Origin: Bacteroidales bacterium
GTDB lineage: Bacteria; Bacteroidota; Bacteroidia; Bacteroidales; UBA932
Assembly: GCA_017535125.1 (NCBI GenBank)
Contig: JAFXUS010000024.1
Coordinates: 1-41,860 of the forward strand
Reading direction: 5' to 3'
DNA: 41,860 nucleotides
A program made the position numbers and the translations under genes. Below, in pieces: positions 4,375 through 15,023 of the stretch. Each line of letters begins with the position of its first letter. Position 1 is the first letter of the stretch. The notes beneath the pieces were generated by a model. The model did not search any database. It had not been told where the DNA came from and saw only the letters and a list, made by a program, of their open reading frames with translations.

Positions 4375-5698
4375 GGTTTTTCTGAAGCATGGGCGCGACG
4401 AGTCGTTGCGCCGGTTCCATCCGTGGGTGTTCAGCGGTGCTGTCGCCCAGGTGCAGGGTTCGCCCGCCGAGGGCGACATCGTCGGCGTGTACAGCGCCGA
4501 GGGGCAGTTCCTGGCCTCCGGCCACTGGCAGGTCGGCTCCATCGCCGTCCGCATCCTGTCTTTCGACGCGGATCCTACCGCTCCTGGCTTCTGGGAAGAT
4601 TCTATTTCTCGCGCGCTTGCAGTCCGCGAAGCTGTCGGGTTGTTTCCGGCGTCGCCGAGCAAGGACGCTCTCCGACAAAACTTCGCGCTGCGCGCTCATC
4701 CCTCCCAGCCTGACGGCTGGGCCCCTCCCGTTCACGAGGCCACGGGCGGCCACGGTTTTGCTGGAGAGGTCCTTGTCTCGGCTCCGAAAAATCAGGATAC
4801 AACGTGTTTTCGGCTGGTACACGGTGAGGGAGACGGTCTCCCGGGGCTGATTATCGACTGGTATGACGGGGTGTGCGTACTGCAGGCCCACTCGGTGGGT
4901 ATGTTCCGGGCGAAGATGCAGATTTGCGAGGCGCTGAAGGCCGTGTTCGGTGAGCGCCTGAAGGCGGTGTATGACAAGAGTTCCGGGACGGCGCCGTTCA
5001 AGGCGGGGCTGGAGCTGATCGACGGGTATCTGTACCGGGCGCCGGGTTTCGATGCGTCCGAGACGGTGGTGCTGGAGAACGGCCGCAAGTTCCTCGTGAA
5101 TTGGGAGGAGGGCCAGAAGACGGGTTTCTTCCTGGATCAGCGGGACAACCGCGAGCTGGTGGGCAAGTATGCCGCCGGACGGCGCGTGCTCAATCTTTTC
5201 TGTTATACGGGCGGGTTCAGTATCTATGCGAAGACGGCAGGTGCCGCGCTGGTGGATTCCGTCGATTCTTCTGCCAAGGCGATCTCGCTGGTCGAGCGGA
5301 ATTTACAGTTGAATTCCGGTGAGGCGGAGGTGCATAATTATTGTGAGGATGCAATCGATTTTCTTCATAAGATTCCGGAGGGGAAGTACGATCTGATGAT
5401 CGTGGATCCGCCGGCATTCGCGAAGCACCGCGGGGCGCTGAAGAACGCGCTGCGTGCGTATCAGCGGCTGAATGCCGCCGCCATCGCGAAGGTGGCGCCC
5501 GGCGGCCTCGTGTTCACGTTCAGCTGCTCGCAGGTCGTGGATAAGATTACCTTCGCCAATACGGTCTTCTCTGCGGCGGCGCAGACGGGGCGCAGCGTGC
5601 GTATCCTGGACCGCCTCTGCCAGGGTGCGGACCATCCGGTCAGTATCTACCATCCGGAGGGGGAGTACCTGAAAGGATTGCTTCTTTATGTTGAATAG
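4367..5698 (+). CDS. rlmI: Class I SAM-dependent rRNA (cytosine-C5) methyltransferase, RlmI-like, with an in-frame insertion
   Basis: 443 residues. Layout: N-terminal PUA-like domain (about 1-70, with RRFHPWVFSGAV), then an RNA-binding linker with FRLVHGEGDGLPGLIID (about 148-164) and a Rossmann methyltransferase domain (NLFCYTGGFSIYA, SAM loop). The motif IV region is LMIVDPPAFAKH, followed by a TFSCSQ segment. E. coli RlmI makes m5C1962 in 23S rRNA. The family is usually about 395 residues. The excess is residues about 96-139, proline/glycine-rich, inserted between helix ALAVREAVGLF and TTCFRLVHGEG and coded by a palindromic element (listed separately). Because the frame is kept and all catalytic motifs are intact, the protein is probably functional. 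Last gene of the 635-5698 unit. Confidence 0.93.
   Translation: MVKVFLKHGRDESLRRFHPWVFSGAVAQVQGSPAEGDIVGVYSAEGQFLASGHWQVGSIAVRILSFDADPTAPGFWEDSISRALAVREAVGLFPASPSKDALRQNFALRAHPSQPDGWAPPVHEATGGHGFAGEVLVSAPKNQDTTCFRLVHGEGDGLPGLIIDWYDGVCVLQAHSVGMFRAKMQICEALKAVFGERLKAVYDKSSGTAPFKAGLELIDGYLYRAPGFDASETVVLENGRKFLVNWEEGQKTGFFLDQRDNRELVGKYAAGRRVLNLFCYTGGFSIYAKTAGAALVDSVDSSAKAISLVERNLQLNSGEAEVHNYCEDAIDFLHKIPEGKYDLMIVDPPAFAKHRGALKNALRAYQRLNAAAIAKVAPGGLVFTFSCSQVVDKITFANTVFSAAAQTGRSVRILDRLCQGADHPVSIYHPEGEYLKGLLLYVE
4654..4782 (+). repeat. Palindromic in-frame insertion element within rlmI
   Basis: Imperfect inverted repeat with arms of about 28 bp: left 4654-4681 (GCCGAG, AAGGAC, CTCTCC, CAAAAC in order) and right 4755-4782 (GTTTTG, GGAGAG, GTCCTT, CTCGGC). 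The span is 129 bp, exactly 43 codons. The interior holds a smaller hairpin, CCAGCC-TGAC-GGCTGG. It matches the extra residues of RlmI. The bases GTTTCCG (4642-4648) and AGCAAGGACG (4658-4667) form a core also found in the ispG and ligA insertions. Confidence 0.75.
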
Positions 5699-5729
5699 CG
5701 TTTTTTGTAAGCTATTCAGGATTAATTGA

Positions 5730-5773
5730 TTACAAAATAAACCTGTCCGAAATGCGACAGGTTTATTTTGTAA
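5730..5773. terminator. Bidirectional terminator between rlmI and ispG
   Basis: Perfect 18-bp stem (5730-5747 TTACAAAATAAACCTGTC pairing with 5756-5773) and an 8-base loop. A-rich and T-rich outer halves let it work for both convergent transcripts (rlmI and ispG units). Confidence 0.9.
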
Positions 5774-12830: not shown

Positions 12831-12836
12831 TATATC

Positions 12837-15023
12837 TTAAAACAACGTTAATTCTTCTATGGTTTGGTCGGCGTCAGCGGGCTTGTCCCTGTCGGGCGAA
12901 GAAACTCGTCCTCGCTCCGCTGCGGAAACGCCCGACATGGGCAACCCGCTGCCCGCCTTCCCGTCATTCGCCGACTTGATCGGCGAATCTTCCGGCAGCA
13001 TGGCGCGGAAGTCGTCTTCCGAAAGGACCGGAATCCCCAGCTTCTCGCACTTCTTGAGCTTTTCCGGCCCCGGCTTGGTGCCGGCCAGCAGGAAGGCGGT
13101 GCTGCCGCTCACGGAAGAGCCGGCCTTGCCGCCGTGCGCCACGATGAGGTCTTTCATCCGCTCGCGGCTGATGCTGAAGTTGCCGGAGATCACGATGGTC
13201 TTTCCCGCGAGGGCGTCGGAGACCGCGACGTCCTGTCCGGCGCCGTCGAAGCGCAGGCCGGCGGCGCGCAGCCGCGCGATCTGCTCCCGGTGCTCGGGCT
13301 TGGCGAAATAGTCGCAGACGCTGCGGGCGATCACTTCGCCCACGTCGTCGATTTCCAGCAGCTGCTCCTGCGTGGCGGCGGCGAGGGTGTCGATGTCGCC
13401 GAAATGGCGGGCGATGCCCTTGGCGGTCGTCTCGCCCACATAGCGGATGCCCAGGGCGAAGAGCACGCGCTCGAAGGGCACCTGCTTGGACGCCTCCAGG
13501 CTTGCGAGGAAGCGCTCGGCGGCCTTGTCCTGCCAGCCCTCGAGGCTGAGCAGCTGGTATTTGCTGATGTCGTAGAGGTCGGCCGGGGTGCGGGCCAGGC
13601 CGGCGGCGTAGAACTGGTCGATGGTCATGTCGCCGGCCAGGATGTCCATGGCCTTGCGGCTGACGAAATGCAGCAGGCGGCCCTTGATCTGCATGGGACA
13701 GCCGTCCTGGTTGGGGCAGAACCACTTGGCCTCGGCTTCCGCTTTGACCAGCGGCGTGCCGCAGTCCGGGCAGACGCTCGGGAAGACGGGCGGCTGTGCG
13801 CCTTTCGCGCGGTGGGCCGGGTCGATGCCGGTGATCTTCGGGATGATCTCCCCGCCTTTCTCCACATAGACCCAGTCGCCGACGCGGATGTCCAGCAGGG
13901 CCATCTGGTCGGCGTTGTTGAGGGTGGCGCGCTTGACGAGCGTGCCGCTGAGCTGGACGGGGGCGAGGTTGGCCACGGGGGTCACGGCGCCGGTGCGCCC
14001 GACCTGGTAGTCGATGCTGAGCAGCTCCGTGCAGGCCTGCTCGGCCTTGAATTTATAGGCCACCGCCCAGCGGGGCGATTTGGCCGTGTAACCCAGCGCG
14101 CGCTGGCAGGCGAGCTCATTGATCTTGATGACGATGCCGTCGGTGGCGTAAGGGAGGAACTTGCGCTCGCTGTCCCAGTGGTCGATGTAGTCCTTGATTT
14201 CCGCGATGTCGTGGCAGAGGCGCCGCTCCGCGGAAACGGGCAGCCCCCAGCGCGCGGCGGCGTCGAGCGCCTCGGCATGGGAGGCGAAGCTGACCGATTC
14301 GGCGGGGACGTGGTAGAGGGTGCAGATGAGGCCGCGGTGCGCCACTTCTTCGGGATCGATGAGCTTCAGCGAGCCGGAGGCGGCGTTGCGCGGATTGGCG
14401 AAGGGCGCTTCTTCCTGCGCTTCGCGTTCGCGGTTGAGGGCGTCGAAGGCCTCATAGGGCATCAGGATCTCGCCGCGGATCTCAAATTCCGCGGGGAAGT
14501 CGCCGTGGAGCTGCTGCGGGATGCTCTTGATGTGGCGGACGTTCTCCGTGACGTCGTCGCCCTGGACGCCGTCGCCGCGGGTGAGGGCCTGGACCAGCTT
14601 GCCGTTCCGGTAGGTGAGGCAGATGGCGGTGCCGTCGAACTTGAGCTCGCAACTGTAGCTGAAACGGATGTTCTCGAGGGTCTTCTCCGCGCGGGCGACG
14701 AATTCTTCGATTTCCGAGATGGAATAGGTGTTGCCCAGCGAGAGCATGGGGTAGCGGTGCGGCCGCTGGACGAAACCCTGGCGGGCCTGCGATTCGGCAT
14801 TGGCGCCCACGGGCGCATCCAGGTCGGAGCCGACGCGGCGGGTGGGGGAGTCGGGGCTGTCGAACTGCGGGAACTCCGCTTCCAGCCGCTCCAGCTCGTG
14901 CATGAGCTGGTCGAACTCGTAGTCGGACATCGTCGGCGCATTATCGACATAATAACGCCGGCTGTTCTCCCGGAGGATTTCCCGGAGCTCGTCTATCCGT
15001 ATTTTTGCGGCCTGTTCTTCCAT
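12837..15023 (-). CDS. ligA: NAD-dependent DNA ligase LigA, with an extended/inserted C-terminus
   Basis: 728 residues from the ATG at 15023. An in-frame ATG at 15056 lies inside the -7 promoter box, and the family start is the M…[10 protein letters not shown] helix. Seals nicks in replication and repair using NAD+. Seen: Ia domain ([17 protein letters not shown]), nucleotidyltransferase with the KFDG lysine ([12 protein letters not shown]), OB fold ([20 protein letters not shown]), Cys4 zinc finger (CPDCGTP … [10 protein letters not shown]), HhH domain, and BRCT ([12 protein letters not shown] … [19 protein letters not shown]). Relatives end shortly after the BRCT domain at about 670 residues. 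Here roughly 40 extra residues (about 679-717), coded by two palindromic structures, separate BRCT from a final EELTLF. First gene of the ligA-to-ispG unit. Confidence 0.96.
12875..12951 (-). repeat. Palindromic in-frame insertion element within the 3' end of ligA
   Basis: Imperfect inverted repeat with arms of 23-24 bp: 12875-12898 (CAGCGGG … TGTCGGGCG) and 12929-12951 (CGCCCGACA … CCCGCTG), with one indel and two mismatches. The loop is about 30 bp. It encodes residues about 691-717. The coding strand carries GTTTCCG (12929-12923) and AGCGAGGACG (12916-12907), the same core order as in the rlmI and ispG insertions. Confidence 0.72.
12966..12988. repeat. Perfect hairpin adjacent to the ligA palindromic element
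   Basis: ATTCGCCGA - CTTGA - TCGGCGAAT, a perfect 9-bp stem with a 5-base loop inside the ligA coding region (residues 679-686). It lies 14 bp from the larger palindrome and within the extra C-terminal segment, so it may be part of the same insertion or a second one. Confidence 0.6.

Follow-up and report, generated by a model that had tools for sequence, protein, structure and literature searches.

The window analysed here, a 41,860-nucleotide stretch of contig JAFXUS010000024.1 from a member of the Bacteroidales, contains three protein genes with palindromic insertions: an rlmI-like gene encoding PUA and S-adenosylmethionine (SAM) methyltransferase domains (4367..5698, plus strand; Pfam PF17785 and PF10672), ispG, also called GcpE (5806..7128, minus strand; PF04551), and ligA, coding for NAD-dependent DNA ligase (12837..15056, minus strand; PF01653, PF03120, PF00533 and others), for which the TTG start is uncertain. 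The insertions are located in a linker of RlmI past the PUA domain, in the interdomain linker of IspG, and in the tail of LigA past the BRCT domain. Site variability was examined against orthologues for these three proteins and for peptidase U32; the three window sites vary in length among the aligned orthologues (three for rlmI, 39 for ispG, and 32 for ligA, fragments counted). A preliminary description of this DNA had regarded the insertions as members of one family with a common core, self-complementary arms, and a preserved reading frame. The core is indeed present at all three places: TTTCCG-N5-20-AGCRAGGAYG has exactly three matches in the window, each oriented with its gene, and none in 100 dinucleotide shuffles, a comparison that is post hoc because the pattern was derived from these sites. 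All three insertions are also in frame within their Pfam-backed hosts. Self-complementarity of the arms is pronounced in ligA and ispG (fold z of -4.9 and -5.5, respectively), but weaker in rlmI, with a z of just -2.1. The assignment to one family did not hold. It was dropped in view of searches with two models, R1 and R2, and of the existence of a second family: the ligA insertion belongs fully to a family of 83-bp hairpins, designated class A, the ispG insertion belongs to family C, and the rlmI insertion is composite.

It appears probable, at about three chances in four, that these insertions represent non-autonomous hairpin repeats resembling the Rickettsia palindromic elements (RPEs), that they belong to several unrelated families which spread in part of one Bacteroidales genus, and that they were kept in tolerant linkers. 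Class A and family C are both dispersed; within each, the core is conserved and the self-complementary arms vary between copies. Most of the copies examined keep the frame of a protein gene, in one orientation or the other. For the main survey, 400 genomes were drawn from the genus of G001, the closest relative by IspG (L001, 82%). Judged from relatives such as L009, L018, L022, and L028, this genus is probably Cryptobacteroides, and the genomes presumably stem from the gut. Copy numbers are lower bounds, because pattern searches overlook diverged copies.

In ligA, the class A element lies in the C-terminal tail, at 12872-12954 (minus strand, model boundaries), with its conserved core at 12908-12928. 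It was found with 94.3 bits (E 1.1e-18) in search R1 and with 90.6 bits in search R2, which used the ligA-family model with filters off and E up to 10. In G001, eight copies of a TTTCCGCAGCGGAGCGAGGAC-like core were detected plus one unrelated match, grpE-like in our reading, and none with the reversed controls. Loose motif matches in seven further relatives were read as chance, six of them showing one to three matches (reversed, zero to one) and the seventh none versus two. The 21-base class A core matched exactly 37 times in 12 of the 400 genomes, G001 included, with no match for the reversed controls; seven of the 37 matches lie in G001, whose copies supplied the pattern. A covariance model of nine copies yielded 71 rows at E <=1e-3 across the 12 core-bearing genomes, including opposite-strand duplicates and a sister class, and 60 stretches were then read.

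Compensatory changes are evident in the arms. In a MAFFT alignment of the nine copies, not fitted to the model, 82.3% of the cells were paired and two-sided changes occurred in 12 of 23 pairs, amounting to 17 cells versus 5.2 in shuffles, with none of 500 shuffles as high. An alignment of 42 copies above E 1e-9, which came from 41 sources (41 of 61 used earlier; L219 excluded), was fitted to the covariance model and hence leans towards the modelled structure; here, 92.2% of the cells were paired, 22 of 23 pairs showed two-sided changes, and 194 such cells stood against 47.7 (0/500 shuffles), whereas slid partners pair in 33-47%. Some loci around class A deserve mention. In prmC of G001 (L184), three head-to-tail copies with a 66-bp period share one open frame and adjoin a GATTCCGGG..CCCGGAATGAC repeat. 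In the U32 linker of G018 (L225), arms resembling those of class A enclose no core, which may reflect deletion of the core or an unoccupied target, and the ligA tail of L031 contains a large foldback insert with neither a class A nor a family C core.

Judged by codon score and open frame, 39 of the 46 class A copies considered lie within a gene and preserve its reading frame, another five have no gene, and two are at doubtful N-termini. The hosts include LigA, peptidase U32, PrmC, a YgiQ-type radical SAM protein, MurE, an ABC-F-type ATPase, AIR-synthase, RecQ, a radical SAM protein, RnpA, DUF1573, a major facilitator superfamily (MFS) protein, a THUMP-like protein, and a barrel-like protein. 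They were assigned by Pfam on representatives or by a matching flanking protein; names beyond Pfam are our reading, and the Pfam score of the barrel-like host is below cut-off. Each of the six frames is represented (8, 8, and 2 sense copies; 5, 11, and 5 antisense copies). On average, 5.20 frames are open per copy versus 4.64 in shuffles, none of 200 being as high. With the used frame removed, 83.6% of the frames are open compared to 78.0% in shuffles, and 11 of 500 shuffles are as high. This excess is small, and translatability therefore mainly reflects the G+C-rich sequence, with a mild excess at most. Thus, strong selection for translatability, as proposed in the preliminary description, was not found, but its expectation of tens of copies, of which most would be in frame within conserved proteins, is supported for class A and, as shown below, for family C.

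The family C element in the ispG interdomain linker (6228..6327, minus strand) forms a three-way junction, and its self-complementary outer arms, read by eye, reach from about 6217 to 6338 on the same strand. Alignment of IspG to a solved structure breaks at the insert, query residues 5-262 and 342-438 being aligned on either side, which places it between two domains. A search for IspG in 11 genomes with class A also hit other loci, where the matches covered residues about 263-309. At the DNA level, blastn of window positions 6200-6345 against the loci read gave 16 rows corresponding to 14 distinct other places, two of them represented twice, with 84-99% identity. The consensus of about 110 bp consists of an outer stem, a hairpin GGATTCG-N6-CGAATCC, and a second hairpin GGTTCCCGC-GYCA-GCGGGAAGC, followed by GAGGATGGA. 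In a MAFFT alignment of 15 copies, with the structure taken from one copy, 91.3% of the cells were paired and 13 of 40 pairs showed two-sided changes (28 cells versus 8.0; 0/500 shuffles), so that compensatory changes in the arms are found in both families.

A 17-base family C core matched 45 times in 14 of the 400 genomes and never in the reversed controls. Thirty loci were read: 18 copies are in frame in a gene, two at doubtful N-termini, and ten without a host gene. Hosts are MurE, an ABC-F-type ATPase, AtpG, IspG, MBOAT, and GSCFA proteins. Over 100 nt, the murE copy of G068 (L305) and the ispG copy of the window share 99% identity, while ispG itself is 83.9% identical over 759 nt between G068 and the window. 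Non-orthologous copies being closer than their hosts fits recent spread or strong constraint. TTTCCG occurs in three of the 15 aligned copies and TTCCCG in ten; among ispG copies, those of G118, G231, G257, and G314 have TTCCCG and that of G090 TTTCCG, which is a mere variant of TTCCCG within family C. The ispG linker of L001 carries a large foldback insert with neither core, and a counterpart exists in G068 (L302).

The rlmI insertion is of a different kind. Its core-like sequence (4642..4667, plus strand) is part of a local hairpin, was not listed in search R1 with E up to 1, and obtained 10.8 bits in R2 (E 2.9), which is chance level. In the rlmI gene of G068 (L304), the same linker contains a similar small hairpin, CTTTTCCAGGCGTCGCCTGGAG, without AGCAAGGACG. 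Therefore, TTTCC-GGCGTCGCC in the window is probably linker sequence and AGCAAGGACG probably a coincidence. Further downstream, 4693..4758 (plus strand) is a stretch of another dispersed repeat, family D, with 90% blastn identity over 70 nt to the YgiQ-type locus L200 and weaker matches in L227, L170, L036, L180, and L304 (79-84%) as well as in L198 (76%). The insertion is a composite, probably built locally, and is neither class A nor family C. A host-templated arm is not claimed, as the local alignment score was reached by 0.1135 of 2000 shuffles. A large foldback insert without class A or C core is also present in the rlmI linker of L001.

Such inserts raise the question of whether a mobile element is needed at all, since foldbacks could be made in situ by template switching at variable linkers. 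Strong folds are indeed frequent at two of the sites. Among U32 inserts, z is below -3 in 5 of 27 once the nine class A rows are set aside and in 13 of 36 when they are included, compared to 0.04 of 137 control segments. For LigA tails, the corresponding values are 3 of 7, or 5 of 9 if the two class A rows are counted, and 0.03 of 34. In addition, L031, L232, and L234 carry long arms without a core. IspG linkers, however, show little of this (0.05 of 38), and near-identical cores recur across unrelated genes and genomes; being dispersed in this way, these cores cannot stem from local foldback. As a general explanation local foldback is therefore unlikely, but it is a likely origin of the core-less hairpins and of the rlmI insert.

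The hairpins could also be functional RNA or DNA structures selected gene by gene, acting for example in translation pausing, in mRNA stability, or as domain linkers. Strong covariation and repeated presence at the same linkers would be in line with such a role. On the other hand, the linkers of relatives are short or filled by other repeats, both orientations and six frames are in use, and scanning class A elements from seven sources against Rfam with E up to 0.1 revealed no family at the elements; the scan gave only two weak ctRNA matches, below gathering score, at an intergenic palindrome. We consider selection for structure in each gene improbable.

About equally improbable is the derivation of the rlmI, ispG, and ligA inserts from one ancestral core in a single proliferating family in which the arms alone diverged. 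The three exact motif matches and the presence of TTTCCG in further family C copies speak for it. So does a consensus built from other genomes: with up to two mismatches it retrieved all three window sites, but a single site in 667 kb of relatives and another in 706 kb of other loci. A remote link between the hairpins may thus exist. Moreover, the class A loop and hairpin 2 of family C share CAGCGG-(GA)-AGCGAGGA. The corresponding local alignment score was reached by 139 of 5000 shuffles, or 33 of 5000 when the TTTCCG form of family C is taken; a relationship of the two hairpins may be considered, the resemblance being suggestive only. Against a single family, R2 recognises neither the rlmI nor the ispG insert, the latter not being listed at all, the ispG copies form a family of their own whose core is unlike that of class A beyond the short hairpin, and TTTCC in rlmI resembles the linker hairpin of G068. 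An artefact of composition or assembly, for which the GC-rich sequence of metagenome-assembled genomes (MAGs) might be invoked, is hardly credible, with no reversed-pattern match in 400 genomes for either core and with the same gene sites occupied in different assemblies.

The preliminary description had also stressed a uniform orientation relative to the gene. This applies to the three window sites, but both orientations occur elsewhere, even between sister genomes at one site. In the LigA tree, which includes L219 as a fragment, the nine class A carriers constitute one starred clade (99/97) and 13 non-carriers lie outside. Within the clade, two starred sister pairs have opposite orientations: the window copy is sense and that of G118 antisense (93% identity), and the copy of G185 is antisense and that of G290 sense. 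At least two orientation changes are therefore needed, and three on the best tree. The whole class A unit is turned, asymmetric ends included, not just the loop. Comparable results were obtained for U32, where eight class A carriers and five rows with other inserts fall into one starred 13-row clade with sisters of opposite class A orientation (L228, a repeat of the G046 copy, was dropped, and L170 is a fragment). Between G185 and G290, all four class A loci compared (LigA, U32, PrmC, and the barrel-like protein) are opposite. In the ispG tree, four carriers have family C in sense and two in antisense orientation; non-carriers are interspersed among them, and branches are partly weak.

Opposite LigA and U32 copies had at first been read as independent insertions, a reading weakened for LigA by the single carrier clade but one that may still apply to U32. 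Since the LigA carriers form one clade and sisters nevertheless differ in orientation, the LigA insertion appears old and the unit probably inverts in place. A more far-reaching idea is put forward tentatively, and we lean against it at present: the palindromes may have made linkers in housekeeping proteins into flipping modules that are readable both ways and invert repeatedly in place, between sister species and possibly within populations, thereby rewriting about 27 residues in LigA, the U32 peptidase, PrmC, and others, and likewise family C in IspG, with the gene unbroken.

How the repeats might arise and persist can be outlined. In class A, arm complementarity extends copy-specifically into the flanks (3.21 versus 2.09 permuted; 0/2000; n=43, the three L184 copies omitted). 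Copies would land widely, and selection would retain those that are in frame, free of stops, and structurally tolerable. Template switching or recombination between the arms could then turn the unit and rematch the arms. According to the accessible part of one report, template switching between inverted repeats homogenises arms and inverts spacers in yeast coding DNA (PMC8604942), and another, likewise available in part, reports that it maintains RNA hairpins (PMC8794818). The yeast spacers are a few bases long, and applying the process to a unit of about 80 bp is therefore an extrapolation. As to mobilisation, our guess is that a hairpin-acting HUH (Y1) transposase would be the likeliest candidate because such genes are common in these genomes: Y1 genes like those of REP-associated tyrosine transposases (RAYTs; REP, repetitive extragenic palindromic) gave matches in 16 of 18 genomes with an E limit of 0.001, and in 13 the Pfam cut-off was exceeded. 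Several RAYT-like Y1 lineages were noted at L257-L276, a number of them flanked by long palindromes of their own. A RAYT as mobiliser of class A was rejected, no link being seen among 22 distinct Y1 places. Neither the consensus nor the core had a match in plasmids, phages, or IMG/VR.

Several findings weigh against spread by mobilisation followed by turning in place. The 24 Y1-transposase stretches, representing these 22 places, contain no class A element (R2, E 0.1) and neither an A nor a C core, and a mobilising enzyme, a target duplication, or a verified empty site was found for neither family. Since the ispG and U32 trees show carriers interspersed among non-carriers, repeated gain or loss must have occurred too. 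Loss with reinsertion could explain the orientation changes, given that the entire unit, along with its asymmetric ends, has been turned. Orientation is equal for MurE in G001 and G185, YgiQ in G018 and G001, and the THUMP-like protein in G213 and G231. Furthermore, the cores of L207 and L214, which are among the nine LigA carriers, have diverged, and the genomes compared are mostly MAGs.

RPE-like hairpin repeats spreading as several families would find their closest parallel in the palindromic elements of Rickettsia and Wolbachia, as already suggested in the preliminary description. The accessible text of the respective reports describes several short palindromic families, intergenic as well as in frame in conserved genes, where they are tolerated (PMC2229807, PMC10969869, PMC6649704). 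In the genomes surveyed here, long stable stems, many dispersed copies in several families, intergenic copies, and copies in frame are likewise found, the likeness being one of description. With respect to the RPE length of 105-146 bp given in the part of the report available (PMC2229807), family C with about 110 bp is within and class A with about 83 bp outside the range. Differences from RPEs are apparent as well: the elements belong to another phylum, occur in both orientations with orientation turnover, class A in all six frames, and have arms that co-vary round a conserved core, whereas RPEs lose repeat identity over time as far as the accessible text states (PMC6649704).

REPs and REPINs with RAYTs (TnpA_REP), among them GTAG and CGTC REPs, are hairpin repeats too, some of them intragenic and in frame in the part of the report available (PMC3733652), and RAYT-like Y1 genes, several with flanking palindromes, are present in these genomes. 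Class A and family C differ in being absent from the Y1 places, in their size of 83-110 bp with variable ends and a conserved centre, and in lying mostly in frame in genes, REPs and REPINs being mainly extragenic. Intragenic invertons, reportedly described by Chanin et al. in 2024, are as far as their description goes also inverted-repeat-bounded DNA within genes with both orientations at one locus, but orientation differs here between genomes or species. A case of a protein-coding palindromic repeat is said to exist in M. jannaschii. Nematomorph mitochondria contain hairpins with matched arms in coding sequence, for which template switching was proposed; this is an organelle, and unlike here no dispersed core family is described in the accessible part of the report (PMC6649704). 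Intragenic REPs, at least in the text available (PMC3733652), and enterobacterial repeats are already in print. For coding palindromic families in Bacteroidales, no report was found in the open-licence literature, in agreement with the preliminary description.

With two well-populated families in Bacteroidales, a phenomenon best known from Rickettsia and Wolbachia is extended. The many comparable sites with different inserts and orientations make arm matching inside coding DNA testable, as well as the question of how often an essential protein gains a repeat harmlessly. They also call for caution, as linker sequence of MAG proteins may derive from repeats.

Besides class A and family C, further repeats were encountered. 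Class B, found as weak model matches, has class A arms but a different loop, ATTTAGCGAAAGCT with a T-run. The loop was recognised in 14 of 18 loci inspected, 11 outside called genes and three overlapping a called frame. With E up to 1e-6, the class B model matched in nine of 12 class A genomes and in none of nine relatives without class A; some of these matches are class A cross-hits. At L202, L203, L205, L206, L212, L213, L216, L217, L220, and L222, class B shows a GNRA-like tip and the T-run loop, and its elements are mostly intergenic, some in tandem. The U32 linkers of L226, L227, L232, L233, L234, L237, and L247 contain other repeats, namely ones encoding the peptides CHSERSEES or SERSE-like ones and a GATTCCGGG..CCCGGAATGAC repeat, or else strong palindromes that lack a class A core. 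In the window, a small palindrome, CGTC-ATTCGCCGA-CTTGA-TCGGCGAAT-CTT (12962..12991, plus strand), lies upstream of the ligA class A element in the sense of the gene. It has a stem of 9, a loop of 5, and a 3-bp tail, in accordance with the features of CGTC REPs, namely a CGTC tag, a stem of 8-9 bp, a loop of 4-5 bp, and a 3-bp tail, as given in the accessible part of the report (PMC3733652). Finally, two hairpin clusters, at 15201-15300 and 18551-18650, have CCGGGCAC/GTGCCCGG arms in common; their folds rank with the strongest in the window, and they resemble a REPIN-type family.

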